Positions 33,178 through 40,293 of a stretch of 40,361 nt of DNA are shown here, one piece after another. The stretch covers positions 1-40,361 of the forward strand of contig NWBJ01000076.1 of the NCBI GenBank assembly GCA_002633115.1. Reading direction: 5' to 3'. Each line of letters begins with the position of its first letter. Position 1 is the stretch's first letter. The notes under the pieces are model-generated. The model ran no database searches, was not told the origin of the DNA, and saw only the letters and a program-made list of their open reading frames with translations. The position numbers and the translations under genes are program-made. This DNA is from Muribaculaceae bacterium Zag1 (GTDB lineage: Bacteria; Bacteroidota; Bacteroidia; Bacteroidales; Muribaculaceae).

Positions 33178-34809
33178 ATGAAAAAATTTCTACCCATCGC
33201 AGCAGCGCTCCTCGTAGCAGCATCTGCTCAAGCCGCTTGGCTGCCGAGCGATACTCAGTCGCTGATAATAGCCGAGGATCCCGGCTATGAATATTGCTTG
33301 CTAACCGAACTAATGGCCTCTGACGGACGCCTTGTTTATACCTGGCTCGATTACGATGGCTACTATGCCTTGAAGATGCAAGTGATCGATACTGATGGAA
33401 ACCGAATGCTCGGCGACCAAGGCGTGACTATCATGAACCAGCCCACCAAGTCGTGGACTACCGACTATTATCCCGTGCTCACATCAGACAATCAACTGAT
33501 TGTGGCCTTCAACGACACTCGCTATGACGAAACAGGGTGGGATCAGTATAGCAATCTCTTTATCTACCGTTATGATCTGGAGGGTAATCCGGTATGGGAT
33601 GCCGATGGCGTACAGTTTACTATGCCTACTGTAAACGAAGGAGCCTCCTGCAATGACTATATGGGTATGGTTTGCCTCTCAGGCGACAACATCTATGTAG
33701 GCGGAATACACTCTGAGACCTACACTGTACCGGCCACGGAAGACAATTGGCAACCCTCCATCTATTTCCCCGATGAGCCGATGCCCGAGACAGTTACTTT
33801 GACTGACACTATGACCGAACTCCAATTGCTTAACTCTGATGGCACTTTCGCTTGGAATCAAAATCTGGTGATTGAATCGGACAGTTACGCCCTTTGTCCT
33901 TCGCTCGATGGGGATGTGATTGTGCTATTCCAAGGTGACAATTACAACCTAATGGCTCAGCGCTACAATGCGCAAGGGCAGTCGGTATGGGCCGAGGCGG
34001 CCGAGGGTATGCCCGAGACTCTTGGCATCAACTATTTCAGCATGCCAGAATACAAAAGCGATGGCGAGGGCGGTGTAGTGCTCGTGGCTCGCATCCCCAA
34101 CAATTATTATGGCTATGTGGCCATGAATCATATTTTGGCCAATGGCGAAGACCTTCTCCACTCTATACCCTGCAATGGCTCGACCGATGGCGATGGCGAA
34201 AATGCAATTTTCGCTCTGCGAGGCCAAGAGATGCTGGTGATGTGGGAATTTTTGGATTCTAACTACCAGCTAAATATATTAGCCAATGAAATGAGCATCG
34301 AGGGCGACTATCTGTGGTCAGGCGATAACATGTATGGCGTATCTTTTGGCGCTAATGACATGTGGGGCTTTAAACCAGTAGCAGTAGTGCCTCAGGACAA
34401 CGGCTGGGTGCTGTTCTATGGCGAAGGGATGACTTGGTCAACTGCCAATTTCTGGGTGCTCAAGATTGACAATTATGGCGACAAGGTGTGGAAGAAACAA
34501 ATTTCAGAAGACAATTGCGAGATGTCGAGCATCAATGTGGTCACCAGCGGAGACTACGCTTATGTCAGCTATATCCCACCGTATGACTACGATGAGAACT
34601 GGAATCCCTACTATCCTGATGGAGGTCTGTGCGTAATGAAGATAGATATCAGCGACAGCAGCAATACCACCGGCGTCAGCGACATGCGTTGCGGCAACTC
34701 CGAAGCAATATATTACAACCTCAATGGTCTGAAAGCCTCATCTCCTCTTTCCCCCGGAGTGTACATCAAGGTTAGCGATGGCAAGTCGCAAAAAGTAGTG
34801 ATTCGATAG
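33178..34809 (+). CDS. Secreted protein of unknown function with C-terminal sorting-like domain
   Basis: A 543-residue protein with a strong signal peptide (PIAAALLVAASAQAAW). No known catalytic motif was recognised. The central region has repeated tyrosine/aspartate/glycine-rich beta segments such as LNSDGTFAWN, YNAQGQSVWAE and IDNYGDKVWKKQ, reminiscent of beta-propeller or PQQ-like blade repeats. The C-terminus (about 500-543) follows the Bacteroidota pattern YYNLNGLKAS...PGVYIKVSDGKSQKVVIR, similar to C-terminal sorting/anchoring tails of secreted proteins. It is preceded by its own promoter and followed by a terminator, then the GH3-GH20 gene. A surface glycan-binding or adhesin-like role is possible but unproven. 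Confidence 0.8.
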   Translation: MKKFLPIAAALLVAASAQAAWLPSDTQSLIIAEDPGYEYCLLTELMASDGRLVYTWLDYDGYYALKMQVIDTDGNRMLGDQGVTIMNQPTKSWTTDYYPVLTSDNQLIVAFNDTRYDETGWDQYSNLFIYRYDLEGNPVWDADGVQFTMPTVNEGASCNDYMGMVCLSGDNIYVGGIHSETYTVPATEDNWQPSIYFPDEPMPETVTLTDTMTELQLLNSDGTFAWNQNLVIESDSYALCPSLDGDVIVLFQGDNYNLMAQRYNAQGQSVWAEAAEGMPETLGINYFSMPEYKSDGEGGVVLVARIPNNYYGYVAMNHILANGEDLLHSIPCNGSTDGDGENAIFALRGQEMLVMWEFLDSNYQLNILANEMSIEGDYLWSGDNMYGVSFGANDMWGFKPVAVVPQDNGWVLFYGEGMTWSTANFWVLKIDNYGDKVWKKQISEDNCEMSSINVVTSGDYAYVSYIPPYDYDENWNPYYPDGGLCVMKIDISDSSNTTGVSDMRCGNSEAIYYNLNGLKASSPLSPGVYIKVSDGKSQKVVIR

Positions 34810-34820
34810 CTTGGGTCATT

Positions 34821-34857
34821 ACCCGGATGGCTACCCCGTAGGGGTAGCCATCCGGGT
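34821..34857 (+). terminator. Terminator after the secreted unknown gene
   Basis: Perfect 17-bp arms (34821-34837 and 34841-34857), ACCCGGATGGCTACCCC on the left, with a 3-nt loop GTA. No T-run follows. Confidence 0.7.
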
Positions 34858-34999: not shown

Positions 35000-35085
35000 T
35001 AATGTGAAATTTCGCCATGATTTAATCAAATTAGAGAGGCGAAATGCAGCTTAGACAAAACATCGTTACCCTACATACCAGCAAT

Positions 35086-38000
35086 ATGAAACCTAAGAAA
35101 TTCTTGCCGATTGCAGCCAGCATGGCCTTAATGGGAGGGATAGCCCACGCGGCTGAGGCCAATCCAGAACGAATGCGCCATTTCGTTGACAGCCTCATGG
35201 CCGAGATGACCCTCGAAGAGAAAATTGGCCAAATAAACCTTGCCTCCGGCATGACTGATGCCGCTGTGCTCGCCGGTGCCGAAGGCACAGAGATGTACCA
35301 AGCAGTGAGAGAAGGGCGCATCGGTGCCACCGGTGCCTCATCATTTGATGTGGTGAAGAAAATCCAAGAATCATCGCAGGAGTCAGCCCACAAAATCCCC
35401 CTGCTCATCGGTCTCGATGTAATCCACGGCCTCAACACCGTGTTCCCGATCCCATTGGCATTGTCTTGCACCTTCGACACTGACCTGATCGAAGAGAGTG
35501 CACGCATCGCTGCCCGCGAATCAGTGGCCGCTGGCGTCAACTGGACCTACTCGCCAATGGTCGACATCAGCCGCGACCCACGCTGGGGCCGAGTGTCGGA
35601 GGGAGGCGGCGAGGACCCATGGTGGGGAAGCCAAGTGGCTCGCGCCATGGTGCACGGTTACCAAGGCGATGACCTTAGCGCTGATTCCACCATAATGGCA
35701 TGCGTCAAGCATTTCGCTCTCTACGGAGCCTCCGAGGCCGGAAGAGATTACAACACCGTGGATATGAGCCGCCAGAAGATGCTCAACGATTACCTGCCTC
35801 CCTACAAGGCAGCATTCCAGGCCGGAGCCGGCAGCGGCATGTCATCATTCAACCTCATTGACGGCATCCCAGCCACTGGCAACCGCTGGCTGATGACCGA
35901 CCTGCTGCGCGGAGAATGGGGTTGGGATGGATTCATCGTCACCGACTTTGACGCCATCAACGAGATGATGGCCCATGGCCTGGGCGACAGCATCAGTGTA
36001 AGCGTGCAAGCCATCAATGCTGGCACCGACATGGATATGCAGAGCAACGCCTACGAGAAATATATGAAGCGAGCTATCGAGCAAGGCTTGGTAAGCATGG
36101 AGACCCTCGACACCGCTTGCCGCCGAGTATTGGAGGCTAAATACAAGCTGGGGCTTTTCGATAACCCATATCTCTATAATGACCCCCAACGCAATGCAAC
36201 CGAACCGGCCAGCTCAGCCAACCTTGCCGCTGCTCGGCGCATAGCCGCCAAGTCGATGGTGCTGCTTAAAAACGAAGACAACTTGTTGCCTCTGAAAAAG
36301 CAAGGCAAGATAGCCGTAGTCGGTCCGTTGGCCGAAGCCAAGGGCGACCTGCTCGGCGCTTGGGTGATGAAACGCGACAAGACCCACATGATCTCAGTAG
36401 CCGATGCCCTCAAGCAGGCTTGCGGCAACGAGGCTGAGGTAGTAACAGCCAAGGGAGCCAATGTCACTGAAGATCCTACTCTGCTATCAATTTTGCGCTC
36501 GCCCTATGCGATGTTTATGGGCGAACCCTTGGATTATGATTCTCGCTCGCCCCAAGAACTGATCGACGAAGCCCTGGCCACAGCTCAAGATGCCGATGTG
36601 ATAGTGGCAGTGCTTGGCGAGACAGCCGCAATGTCGGGCGAGGCATCGAGCCGCAGCGACATCAGTATCCCGGAGAGCCAGCGCAGTCTGCTGAAAGCTC
36701 TGCTCGCTACTGGCAAACCAATTGCTTTGGTTATTATAAATGGTCGACCCCTCACCATCCAGTGGGAGTCGGAGAATGTGCCTGCCATCCTCGAGGCTTG
36801 GGCTCCCGGCACTGCCTCGGGTTATGCCGTGGCTGATGTGCTTTTTGGCGAAATCAATCCCTCAGGTCGTCTTACCATGACCTTCCCGCGTTCGGTTGGC
36901 CAGATTCCAATCTACTATAACCACAAGCCCACAGGTCGCCCATTTGACCCAGTCAACAAATTCACATCCAAATATCTCGACTGCCCTAACGAACCGCTCT
37001 ATCCCTTTGGTTATGGGCTGAGTTATACTGAGTTTGAATACAGCGACTTGGCGCTCAGCAAAACCGACCTGCTTGCCGATGAGTGCCTTAGGGCAACGGT
37101 GACAGTTAAGAATACAGGCGACCGCATGGGCGAAGAAGTGGTGCAATTGTATGTAGCAGATCTGGTGGCAAGGATTTCGCGTCCGGTAAAAGAACTGAAA
37201 GGCATCCAAAAAATCTCACTCAATCCTGGAGAATCGAGGCAAGTGACATTTACCTTGACTGCCGACGACTTGAAATATTTCGATGCTGATGGAAATTACG
37301 ACTGGGATGGCGGCGAATTCGTAATTATGGTGGGCCGCAACTCATCAGATGTAAAATCAGCCAAGGTAAACTGGAGCAAAGGGGAAGCCATTGGGTTGCT
37401 CCCCGCCGTTGGCAAATTTGCCACACTCTCAGATCCAGCCGTAACCCTCTCTCCAGCCATTTATTATTCTGATAAGACGCTGGCACCCCTCGCCGAAATC
37501 TTGGCCCAGGACCTGAAAGCCACGACCGGAGTGAAATTTTCAGTCAGCGCCAAATCGCCCGAAAAAGCCGGTATCATCTTGACCCTTGGGCAAGTCGATG
37601 GCCTGGGCCAAACTTACGGCACCGACCCGGCAGCAGGGGATGATAATGATGAGGCTTATGCCATTAGTATCGCTGGCAATCAGGCCACACTGACCGCCAA
37701 CAGTTATCGCGGCCTGACCAATGCTTGCAGCAGTCTGCGCCAATTAATCACCACCGAAGCTGGAGCCGTTAAGGCTCCGGCTCTGGAGATTGCCGATGCT
37801 CCTCGCTTGGCTTGGCGCGGTCTATTGCTCGATGTATCGCGCCATTTCTTCACCCCGGTGGAGGTAAAGCAAGTAATCGACGCTATGGCTCTCTACAAGA
37901 TGAATGTGCTGCATCTCCATCTCTCCGACAACCAAGGTTGGCGCTTCGAGGTCAAAGGATATAAGCCCCTCTCTGACCAGTTTTATACCCAAAAAGAATA

Positions 38001-38949
38001 TTCTGACCTTGTGGCTTATGCTTCGGTCCGTGGCATAACCATTGTGCCCGAACTTGACCTGCCAGGCCACAGCGCAGCCGTGTTTCAAGCCTTTCCCCAA
38101 TTCAGCAACACCGCTTCGCTGCCTTTTGAGTTTAATTTCCCGGGGCAGGAGATTTGCGCTCTCGACCCCGATGATGCCGAGGCTATGGAGTTTGTCAAGG
38201 CTGCCATCACGCAGCTCTGCGCCCTCACCCCTGGCCAATACATCCACATCGGAGGTGATGAGACATTTGGAATGCATGACGAGCCTTATTCAAAATTCGT
38301 AAAGCAAGTCAAGGCGCTGGTGCGCTCATGCGGCAAGCAAGTGGCCGGATGGCAAGAGATGGCTCGCGCCGACGTGGGCGAGGGCGATGTGGTGCAAAAT
38401 TGGATACGCTTCAGCCGCAAGCAAATGATGATGAAGAAAGATGCTGGCAAATCCAGTCTGCCCGATGAGGTCTCAAAGATGCTCGGCGCAACCTATATGA
38501 AAGCTCCGTCGGATCTGCCCACCTCGATTCAGAATGGCGCAAAGGTGCTGCTTTCGCCTTTGGCTTTTGCCTATCACGACTGCCCTTTTGAGGAGGAAAA
38601 TCTCAACATCGCCTATCAGGAACGCAGTCGCGAACTAGGACTAAAAAATTATGCCCCGCAGAATCTGCGGGACATATACGAGTGGGATCCAACCAATCTT
38701 TATCCTTATCTTGACATTGAGAGCAATATTGCCGGTATCGAGGCAACGCTCTTCTGCGAAACTATCCAGAGCCTTGACGATGCGTTCACTATGATTCTCC
38801 CTCGCCTCGCTTCGATAGCAGAGCATGCTTGGAATTGCGGCCGCGAACTCCCTTGGGACGGCTTCTCCTCCCGCCTCCCCCAGCACGAATCCCTCTATCG
38901 CCTCCACAATTGGCCATTCTTCAAATCCTCAATCATTCCCTGGAACTAA
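35086..38949 (+). CDS. GH3-GH20 fusion glycosidase (beta-glucosidase/xylosidase plus beta-N-acetylhexosaminidase)
   Basis: A secreted two-enzyme protein. Numbered from ATG 35044 (1301 residues): GH3 N-domain about 45-375 with KHFALYG and the nucleophile Asp301 in VTDFDA; GH3 C-domain about 400-620 (IAVVGPL, VAVLGETAAMSGE, LVIINGRPL); fibronectin-III-like domain about 675-770 (EEVVQLYVADL); GH20b-like domain about 785-915; GH20 barrel from about 920 (WRGLLLDVSRHFF) with LHLHLSDNQGWR and the catalytic Asp1072-Glu1073 in HIGGDETFG. Both active sites look complete. I prefer ATG 35086, since MKPKKFLPIAASMALMGGIA gives a clean signal peptide; the first 14 residues of the long form do not. Such fusions should act on a glycan holding both beta-glucosyl/xylosyl and beta-HexNAc units. 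I do not recall a characterised GH3-GH20 pair. Confidence 0.92.
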   Translation: MKPKKFLPIAASMALMGGIAHAAEANPERMRHFVDSLMAEMTLEEKIGQINLASGMTDAAVLAGAEGTEMYQAVREGRIGATGASSFDVVKKIQESSQESAHKIPLLIGLDVIHGLNTVFPIPLALSCTFDTDLIEESARIAARESVAAGVNWTYSPMVDISRDPRWGRVSEGGGEDPWWGSQVARAMVHGYQGDDLSADSTIMACVKHFALYGASEAGRDYNTVDMSRQKMLNDYLPPYKAAFQAGAGSGMSSFNLIDGIPATGNRWLMTDLLRGEWGWDGFIVTDFDAINEMMAHGLGDSISVSVQAINAGTDMDMQSNAYEKYMKRAIEQGLVSMETLDTACRRVLEAKYKLGLFDNPYLYNDPQRNATEPASSANLAAARRIAAKSMVLLKNEDNLLPLKKQGKIAVVGPLAEAKGDLLGAWVMKRDKTHMISVADALKQACGNEAEVVTAKGANVTEDPTLLSILRSPYAMFMGEPLDYDSRSPQELIDEALATAQDADVIVAVLGETAAMSGEASSRSDISIPESQRSLLKALLATGKPIALVIINGRPLTIQWESENVPAILEAWAPGTASGYAVADVLFGEINPSGRLTMTFPRSVGQIPIYYNHKPTGRPFDPVNKFTSKYLDCPNEPLYPFGYGLSYTEFEYSDLALSKTDLLADECLRATVTVKNTGDRMGEEVVQLYVADLVARISRPVKELKGIQKISLNPGESRQVTFTLTADDLKYFDADGNYDWDGGEFVIMVGRNSSDVKSAKVNWSKGEAIGLLPAVGKFATLSDPAVTLSPAIYYSDKTLAPLAEILAQDLKATTGVKFSVSAKSPEKAGIILTLGQVDGLGQTYGTDPAAGDDNDEAYAISIAGNQATLTANSYRGLTNACSSLRQLITTEAGAVKAPALEIADAPRLAWRGLLLDVSRHFFTPVEVKQVIDAMALYKMNVLHLHLSDNQGWRFEVKGYKPLSDQFYTQKEYSDLVAYASVRGITIVPELDLPGHSAAVFQAFPQFSNTASLPFEFNFPGQEICALDPDDAEAMEFVKAAITQLCALTPGQYIHIGGDETFGMHDEPYSKFVKQVKALVRSCGKQVAGWQEMARADVGEGDVVQNWIRFSRKQMMMKKDAGKSSLPDEVSKMLGATYMKAPSDLPTSIQNGAKVLLSPLAFAYHDCPFEEENLNIAYQERSRELGLKNYAPQNLRDIYEWDPTNLYPYLDIESNIAGIEATLFCETIQSLDDAFTMILPRLASIAEHAWNCGRELPWDGFSSRLPQHESLYRLHNWPFFKSSIIPWN

Positions 38950-39051: not shown

Positions 39052-40293
39052 CTACCCCAACAGAGCGGAAAGACGATTGACACGATAGGAGCCATTGCGA
39101 GAATGATCGTACTTAGTATATCTAATTGACTCCAAAATTATTGGATCTATCTCAGATTCTATAGAATATGGGAAACCACAATCCTTTCTTTTCTCTTGTA
39201 GGTAAGAGGAAAGCGATAAGCCTAAAGTCTTACCAAAAATAGTTGGGACGGCATTTCCAACTTGTTGAAATTGATTAGCCTTTGACCCGCAAAAAGTCCA
39301 TTCTTCCGGGAATCCTTGCAATAAGGCTACTTCTTTCAAAGTAAGCCGTCTCAAAGAGTTATCGGGCATCCTTATCCAATCTTGACTTGAGGAACCTGTT
39401 ACGGTACGCGCAGGTTTGTCCACATCGGCAATAAAAGTACCTTGGCGATAACCCCAATGGCCATTTGGTCTAGTAGCCTCAGCCCTTCCCGTACTTTTTA
39501 ATCCAGAGCCATTAGGGAGATTCTTTAAAGCTTCCCAAAGTGATTCTGTAGGACGACACCAATTGCTTTCGTCCTTATCCTCGTGGCTGGATAAAAATTC
39601 TCTCAAAGTCCTCCAAGGCTTAGTGGCTTGTGAGAACAGATCGGCCTCTAAAGCCTCTTTACTGTGAGTAGCAAGTGGAATATCGGGAGCCTTACCAATT
39701 CTAGATCCTATAATGAAACACCTTACTCTCCGTTGGTAGGACCCATAATCGGCTGAATTGAGAAGCATGGCGCGTGAGGAATATCCCATTTGGCCCATGA
39801 GGCGTAACAATTCATGGAGCACCTCTCCTGGTTCCCCATTTTTCCCTCGAGCAGTTGCCAAGCCACGCACATTCTCAAATATAAATGTCAGAGGTTGAAC
39901 TTCTTTCAATAATCTAAGATATTGATACACTAAAGCGCCCCTGCTGTCAAATATTGACTCTTGTTTGCCAGCACTTGAAAAAGCTTGACAAGGGGGCCCT
40001 CCTACCAAGCAATCGATTTCCAAGCCTTCAGGATTCAAATCAGAGGCCGAAATGTTGTATATATCTTCTTGGATAATATGGGTATGCTCTAAATAGGTCC
40101 TATCACTGTCACCGATTCTTAACCCTTTGGATTGATTCAATCTAAGAGTTTGGCTAAAGTCTGGACATATCTCTACAGCCGACAGAGTCTGAAATCCTGC
40201 CTGCTCCAAACCGATATCTAATCCTCCGGCCCCACTAAAAAGACTTATTGAAGTAAGTCGAGGAGATTTTTCATTTTTCAACAACATACTCAT
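39052..40293 (-). CDS. dcm: DNA (cytosine-5-)-methyltransferase
   Basis: A 413-residue C5-MTase. Motif I is LFSGAGGLDIGLEQ; motif IV GGPPCQAFSSAG has the catalytic Cys102; motif VI is FENVRGL; motif VIII QRRVRCFIIG; motifs IX/X are GSSSQDW...LTLKEVALLQGFPEEW and QVGNAVP. The recognition site is unknown and is set by the target-recognition segment (about 245-310), which here has a lengthy TRPNGHWGYRQGTF stretch. It is AT-rich compared with the CAZyme genes and convergent to them, suggesting acquisition. No restriction endonuclease is visible in the window; a partner, if any, would lie beyond the right edge. ATG 40293 or 40287 could be the start. It may be overlapped by a short upstream frame. 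Confidence 0.93.
   Translation of the reverse strand: MSMLLKNEKSPRLTSISLFSGAGGLDIGLEQAGFQTLSAVEICPDFSQTLRLNQSKGLRIGDSDRTYLEHTHIIQEDIYNISASDLNPEGLEIDCLVGGPPCQAFSSAGKQESIFDSRGALVYQYLRLLKEVQPLTFIFENVRGLATARGKNGEPGEVLHELLRLMGQMGYSSRAMLLNSADYGSYQRRVRCFIIGSRIGKAPDIPLATHSKEALEADLFSQATKPWRTLREFLSSHEDKDESNWCRPTESLWEALKNLPNGSGLKSTGRAEATRPNGHWGYRQGTFIADVDKPARTVTGSSSQDWIRMPDNSLRRLTLKEVALLQGFPEEWTFCGSKANQFQQVGNAVPTIFGKTLGLSLSSYLQEKRKDCGFPYSIESEIDPIILESIRYTKYDHSRNGSYRVNRLSALLG

Follow-up and report, generated by a model that had tools for sequence, protein, structure and literature searches.

The window, that is, the whole stretch of DNA that was analyzed (40,361 nucleotides of contig NWBJ01000076.1 of Muribaculaceae bacterium Zag1), includes a gene, here termed P0001, in which a glycoside hydrolase of family GH3 and another one of family GH20 are joined in a single chain. 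This two-enzyme fusion is real, and it is rare in the genome sample. Protein domains were assigned with Pfam, equivalog families with NCBIfam, and solved relatives by alignment to PDB sequences. The gene comprises the following features:

35086..38949, + strand: GH3-GH20 fusion gene P0001, 1287 amino acids (open reading frame translation and Pfam)
35086..35151, + strand: putative Sec signal peptide, residues 1-22, cleavage at about AHA-AE (read by eye)
35209..36135, + strand: GH3 N-terminal barrel, residues 42-350, with putative nucleophile Asp287 (Pfam, 209.7 bits; alignment to 3u48)
36256..37026, + strand: GH3_C domain, residues 391-647, with putative acid/base Glu519 (Pfam, 199.8 bits; alignment to 3u48)
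37135..37344, + strand: Fn3-like domain, residues 684-753 (Pfam, 81.1 bits)
37345..37452, + strand: junction, residues 754-789 (Pfam boundaries; alignments to solved relatives)
37453..37800, + strand: GH20b domain, residues 790-905, from profile position 24 (Pfam, 51.4 bits)
37810..38835, + strand: GH20 catalytic barrel, residues 909-1250, with the pair Asp1058-Glu1059 (Pfam, 208.9 bits)

The frame 35086-38949 (+) runs for 1287 codons without an internal stop, and Pfam places along it, each above its cut-off, the domains GH3, GH3_C, Fn3-like, GH20b and GH20, in this order; no Pfam domain is found C-terminal to GH20. The original prediction, made from the letters alone, had proposed a complete GH3 and a complete GH20 in one chain with Fn3-like and GH20b-like parts between the catalytic domains, and the five Pfam domains in a single frame bear out both points (81.1 and 51.4 bits for the two intervening parts). 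Its residue numbers differ from ours by 14 because they were counted from an alternative in-frame ATG at 35044, which would give a protein of 1301 amino acids, 14 residues longer; counted from 35086, its Asp301 and Asp1072-Glu1073 are Asp287 and Asp1058-Glu1059. As the match to 3u48 ends at residue 768 and that to 7bwg, a hexosaminidase, begins at residue 768, there is almost no linker between the halves. At the N-terminus, a basic start, a hydrophobic stretch and the sequence AHA-AE can be read by eye, with no lipobox Cys. By this reading, the protein looks exported, with a probable Sec signal peptide.

That two adjacent genes were wrongly joined during assembly, as might occur in a draft genome of 137 contigs and as would fit with no listed relative having the fusion, is extremely improbable. 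The frame is kept over 3.86 kb, the start of the GH20 half has by eye no signal peptide of its own, and none of the 11 BglX relatives of the GH3 half (L005-L015) has an adjoining GH20 match (flanks of ~1.5 kb or less). Guanine plus cytosine (GC) content is alike in the GH3 and GH20 halves (0.546 vs 0.534; 0.62 vs 0.59 at third codon positions, GC3), both being slightly GC-richer than the window (0.509). With composition alike in both halves, the fusion frame shows no sign of a mis-join.

Seven genome samples were searched: 61 genomes (with the whole protein), 395 of the phylum (with the GH20 half), 49 of the genus, 393 of the order, 198 of the family, 28 of the family of genome G742 and 395 of the class (with the whole protein). 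Together these make 1519 overlapping genome searches, in which ~1,340 different genomes of the phylum are represented. They are samples except for the genus and the family of G742, for which 49 and 28 genomes were returned where 400 and 150 had been requested. The best matches of each genome were scored, up to three in the phylum and order samples, two in the class sample and ten in the 61-genome sample. No GH3-GH20 fusion other than P0001 occurs among the matches listed from these ~1,340 sampled genomes, in agreement with the novelty deemed plausible beforehand, although a distant, independent fusion could be hidden in them. In the class sample, 42 of the 395 genomes, its own included, pass E 1e-225, and the 42 rows other than P0001 (from 41 genomes) are all unfused, with frames of 752-842 amino acids. 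None of 870 plasmid records with a match has a single place covering 80% of P0001; the viral contig scan gave no relative of P0001, and the general scan of genome contigs gave one distant GH20 (L016) from an alphaproteobacterium.

Long frames among the matches listed also lack the pairing. Six GH20 frames from the phylum, genus and order matches (L057-L062, five of at least 1000 amino acids and one of 930) have no GH3 by Pfam, and six GH3 frames of 974-1133 amino acids in the 61-genome sample have no GH20. Five further GH3 frames measure 1130-1144 amino acids; no frame listed but P0001 exceeds 1144, which is too short for both enzymes. One long GH3 frame (L076) has no extra domain above cut-off, and L077 (894 amino acids) matches GH20 but not GH3. 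Nor does the fusion occur in split form, as the GH20 relatives have no GH3 match beside them (within flanks that in most loci reach ~1.5 kb at most), just as no GH20 match lies beside the 11 BglX relatives. Among the best literature matches listed, no paper deals with a GH3-GH20 fusion by title or abstract, and the excerpt of a study on GH20 architecture (PMC4449183) names GH3 merely as another hexosaminidase family. Since both modules are found joined to other domains in relatives, the kind of fusion is known and the GH3-GH20 pairing is what is new here. One of the long frames, L059:4436-9160, is a GH20-GH92 fusion of 1574 amino acids from the same order, combining hexosaminidase and alpha-mannosidase family domains.

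The GH3 half is of BglX type. It scores 884.4 bits against NCBIfam NF011678 (BglX), whose equivalog cut-off is 666, whereas the xylosidase family NF052329 gives 446.7 bits, far under its cut-off of 1050. Because the BglX cut-off is passed and the xylosidase cut-offs are missed, a beta-glucosidase is favored over a beta-xylosidase, which refines the beta-glucosyl or beta-xylosyl specificity suggested in the original prediction. The closest solved relative is 3u48 (JMB19063; 906.9 bits, residues 29-768), to which Asp287 (in VTDFDA) and Glu519 (in SGEASSR) align locally without gaps. Their respective roles as nucleophile and acid/base are assumed by homology; Glu519 comes in addition to the residues named beforehand. 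Standalone BglX proteins are 50-58% identical to P0001 among the class-level matches listed, the nearest standalone relative compared (L078) reaching 58.2%, and the FastTree branch of the GH3 half measures 0.54 vs 0.04-0.42 for 14 others. A NagZ/Nag3-type GH3 was considered and rejected, PRK05337 scoring 31.9 bits vs a cut-off of 207. P0001 has KHFALYG and not the NagZ/Nag3 motif KH(F/I)PG(H/L)G....D(S/T)H, which carries the His-Asp dyad (PMC5615308, excerpt).

These scores also bear on a plant N-glycan substrate, from which the GH3 half would take core beta-1,2-xylose and the GH20 half antennary N-acetylglucosamine (GlcNAc). Such a pathway, with a separate GH3 beta-1,2-xylosidase (likely periplasmic) and a separate GH20, is described for Bacteroides massiliensis (PMC9522356, excerpt); eight GH92 matches in the own genome and the GH20-GH92 fusion of the same order (L059) would fit with it as well. 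We nevertheless give this possibility very little weight, as the GH3 half lies above the BglX cut-off and far below the xylosidase ones, and no GH92, GH29 or PNGase is present among the 23 Pfam-scanned proteins of the window (the genome was not searched for PNGase or GH29).

The best solved relative of the GH20 half is 1hp4, the enzyme SpHex; 7bwg also matches, aligning from residue 768. We compared 13 positions of the SpHex pocket. Two of them, R162 and E444, are also given in PMC4449183 (excerpt). By MAFFT alignment, 11 of the 13 pocket residues are kept, 10 being the safe count since the match of Asp1165 depends on the alignment. Seven of the residues kept (R919, D948, D991, H995, D1058, E1059 and W1089) are identical in 24/24 SpHex-like rows, and the other four (W1106, Y1163, D1165 and E1225) in the 23 readable ones, the row of L019 being cut by an in-frame stop. 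The residues of a model-A GH20 are present, namely the catalytic pair D1058-E1059 and the Arg (R919) and Glu (E1225) of subsite -1. Compared with the other rows, the GH20 half has a best full-length identity of ~35-36%, with short stretches of up to 52%. It is SpHex-like but very divergent, and has changed far more than the GH3 half while retaining its catalytic pair. FastTree gives it a branch of 2.21, next to L020, with weak support, so that its position is unsure.

Taking both halves together, we consider it probable that P0001 is a two-headed exo-glycosidase with a periplasmic location after export. Its GH3 half would release beta-linked glucose, or a similar sugar, from non-reducing ends by double displacement with Asp287 and Glu519, and the GH20 half would cleave beta-N-acetylhexosamine (beta-HexNAc) off non-reducing ends, Asp1058 and Glu1059 acting in a substrate-assisted mechanism. 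Both sites would act in turn on oligosaccharides carrying both sugars; as there is almost no linker, we propose that they stay close enough to do so. Export, both activities and their joint use are what we infer from sequence, and the proposed function has good grounds in homology. When glycosidases are fused, this hints at sugars found side by side in the same substrate. The pairing, not met in the genomes searched, may thus lead to a glycan whose ends include beta-glucosyl as well as beta-HexNAc units; our guesses for it are fragments of chitin-glucan or an exopolysaccharide of bacteria.

Several observations weigh against a two-headed enzyme, most of them concerning the GH20 half, in which two further features were delimited:

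37945..37992, + strand: shortened loop 2 region, residues 954-969 (12-residue gap vs SpHex; segment lengths)
38404..38529, + strand: stretch with an insertion of ~30 amino acids, residues 1107-1148, flanked by the counterparts of Trp361 and Tyr393 in SpHex (alignment lengths)

In the HMMER alignment, loop 2 of SpHex is cut to ~3 of 15 residues in P0001, and a gap after Tyr1163 sets Asn1172, and not Asp1165, against SpHex Asp395. The equivalents of Trp361 and Asp395 lie 64 residues apart, vs 17-37 in the other readable rows. Phe1223 occupies the place of SpHex Trp442, which is Trp in 23/23 readable SpHex-like rows, and there is no Trp at the place of Trp408 (Asn1188 by HMMER; the MAFFT column differs). 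No NCBIfam GH20 family scores above cut-off for this half, its end branch in the IQ-TREE tree, beside the 24 SpHex-like rows, is 4.24 (median 0.53), and a single-sequence structure prediction of residues 640-1287, with a mean predicted local distance difference test score (pLDDT) of 38.8, was not used. Its activity may be reduced or changed. Furthermore, no neighboring gene marks a substrate.

Taken further, the very long branch, the low best identity, the reduction of loop 2, Phe in place of Trp442 and the missing Trp408 could mean that the GH20 half has ceased to work as a hexosaminidase and is decaying or has been repurposed, its main role now being to bind glycan on behalf of the GH3 half. 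As decay is expected to hit the catalytic pair and the pocket too, and the pair and at least 10 of the 13 pocket residues are kept, we regard this as unlikely, and a divergent GH20 that still acts on beta-HexNAc is preferred.

Loop 2 deserves a separate comparison. In SpHex it corresponds to G209-T223, and where loop 2 is short in a model-A GH20 enzyme, an accompanying domain or a dimer partner is reported to supply a remote element (both from the excerpt of PMC4449183). A common segment including loop 2 has 35 residues in P0001, 47 in all 24 SpHex-like rows, 44-68 in 23 further rows and 36-69 in eight added GH20 rows (36 in L065, 40 in L069 and L070, 43 in L064), being in P0001 the shortest of 56 rows (36-69 in the 55 others). 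Among the 55 relatives compared, the ~30-residue insertion near the active site is present, in readable rows, only in P0001. As no Pfam domain follows GH20, the possible sources of a remote element are the insertion, the GH3/Fn3 side and a second chain. The GH3 and GH20 parts could then be interdependent, loop 2 having been dispensed with and the pocket being completed by the GH3/Fn3 part or by a dimer partner that it arranges. We hold this to be quite improbable: L065, a GH20 of the same family that stands alone, is nearly as short-looped, so that a short loop 2 needs no GH3 partner, and it speaks for pocket solutions without GH3. We know of no report of a GH20 site completed by another glycosidase (no dedicated search was made). 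With the shortened loop 2 and the insertion, it can be tested sharply whether, as the rule has it, a GH20 with a short loop 2 needs outside help for its active site.

Upstream of the fusion gene lies a pectin-type locus with genes for a SusC/SusD pair, two GH2 proteins, an AraC-type regulator, RGL11, GH88, DUF4861 and an esterase. It is separated from P0001 by genes for an oxidoreductase, a tetratricopeptide repeat protein and a protein that Pfam does not match, as well as by a hairpin:

34821..34857, no strand assigned: perfect 17-base-pair inverted repeat with a 3-base loop, terminator-like, without T run (fold and genome scan)

The hairpin has a fold z of -6.3 (0/200 shuffles) and a single genome copy at up to 3 mismatches; scans for promoters and T-run terminators stayed at chance level. 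The fusion gene is probably its own transcription unit, and its neighbors therefore do not indicate a substrate; it is not plainly part of the adjoining pectin-type locus, which is in keeping with the earlier suggestion of a glycan other than pectin. The protein of 543 amino acids encoded at 33178-34809 begins like a signal peptide and matches no Pfam family, nor did searching the PDB yield a useful hit; its end, GVYIKVSDGKSQKVVIR, resembles by eye a C-terminal sorting tail of Bacteroidota. The next gene after P0001, on the opposite strand (39052-40293), encodes a cytosine-5 methylase and has a GC of 0.43 and a GC3 of 0.36, vs a GC of 0.51 in the window; it was possibly acquired.

Elsewhere, the genome contains one other GH20 gene, one GH18 match, two GH16 and eight GH92. 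At G000:C69:23105-25894, a GH16 match precedes by ~100 bases a second BglX-like GH3 (47% identical), likely as a beta-glucan pair. In seven loci of genus relatives (L008-L014; e.g., L010:33-1427 beside L010:1537-3705) a GH3-GH3 tandem is kept, BglX lying directly after a distant GH3 (31-35% identical to P0001). The genome (G000) has 4.46 Mb. Of the 48 others in its genus, 47 measure 1.8-2.9 Mb, and only G006 comes near with 4.1 Mb.

P0001 can be compared with several known systems. With BglX-type GH3 enzymes (3u48; 5xxl and 6r5i, the latter two termed 'periplasmic beta-glucosidase'; 5tf0) it has in common the span GH3, GH3_C and Fn3-like, and its nucleophile and acid/base motifs are the same as those of 3u48. 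Those enzymes are standalone, and P0001 alone carries ~520 amino acids of GH20 behind. With SpHex-like two-domain GH20 enzymes (1hp4, 4c7d; 'model A' in the excerpt of PMC4449183) it shares the GH20b-GH20 order, the Asp-Glu pair and 10-11 of the 13 pocket residues; unlike them, it has a GH3 in front, a loop 2 of ~3 vs 15 residues, the insertion of ~30 amino acids and Phe for Trp442. Bacteroidota GH20 fusions with GH92 (L059), GDSL lipase (L061), endonuclease/phosphatase (L062), DUF4434 (L057) or LamG (L058, L060) are multi-domain like P0001; three of these six have a second enzyme domain, and none has GH3. Likewise, GH3 is fused to GDSL lipase (L071), polysaccharide deacetylase (L073, L074) or DUF4886 (L072, L075), and in no case to GH20. 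In Nag3 of Cellulomonas fimi, a single active site serves two activities, whereas P0001 has two unrelated active sites. Both activities, glucosidase and GlcNAcase, are combined in one protein by this single-domain GH3 (PMC5615308, excerpt), as is proposed here for P0001.

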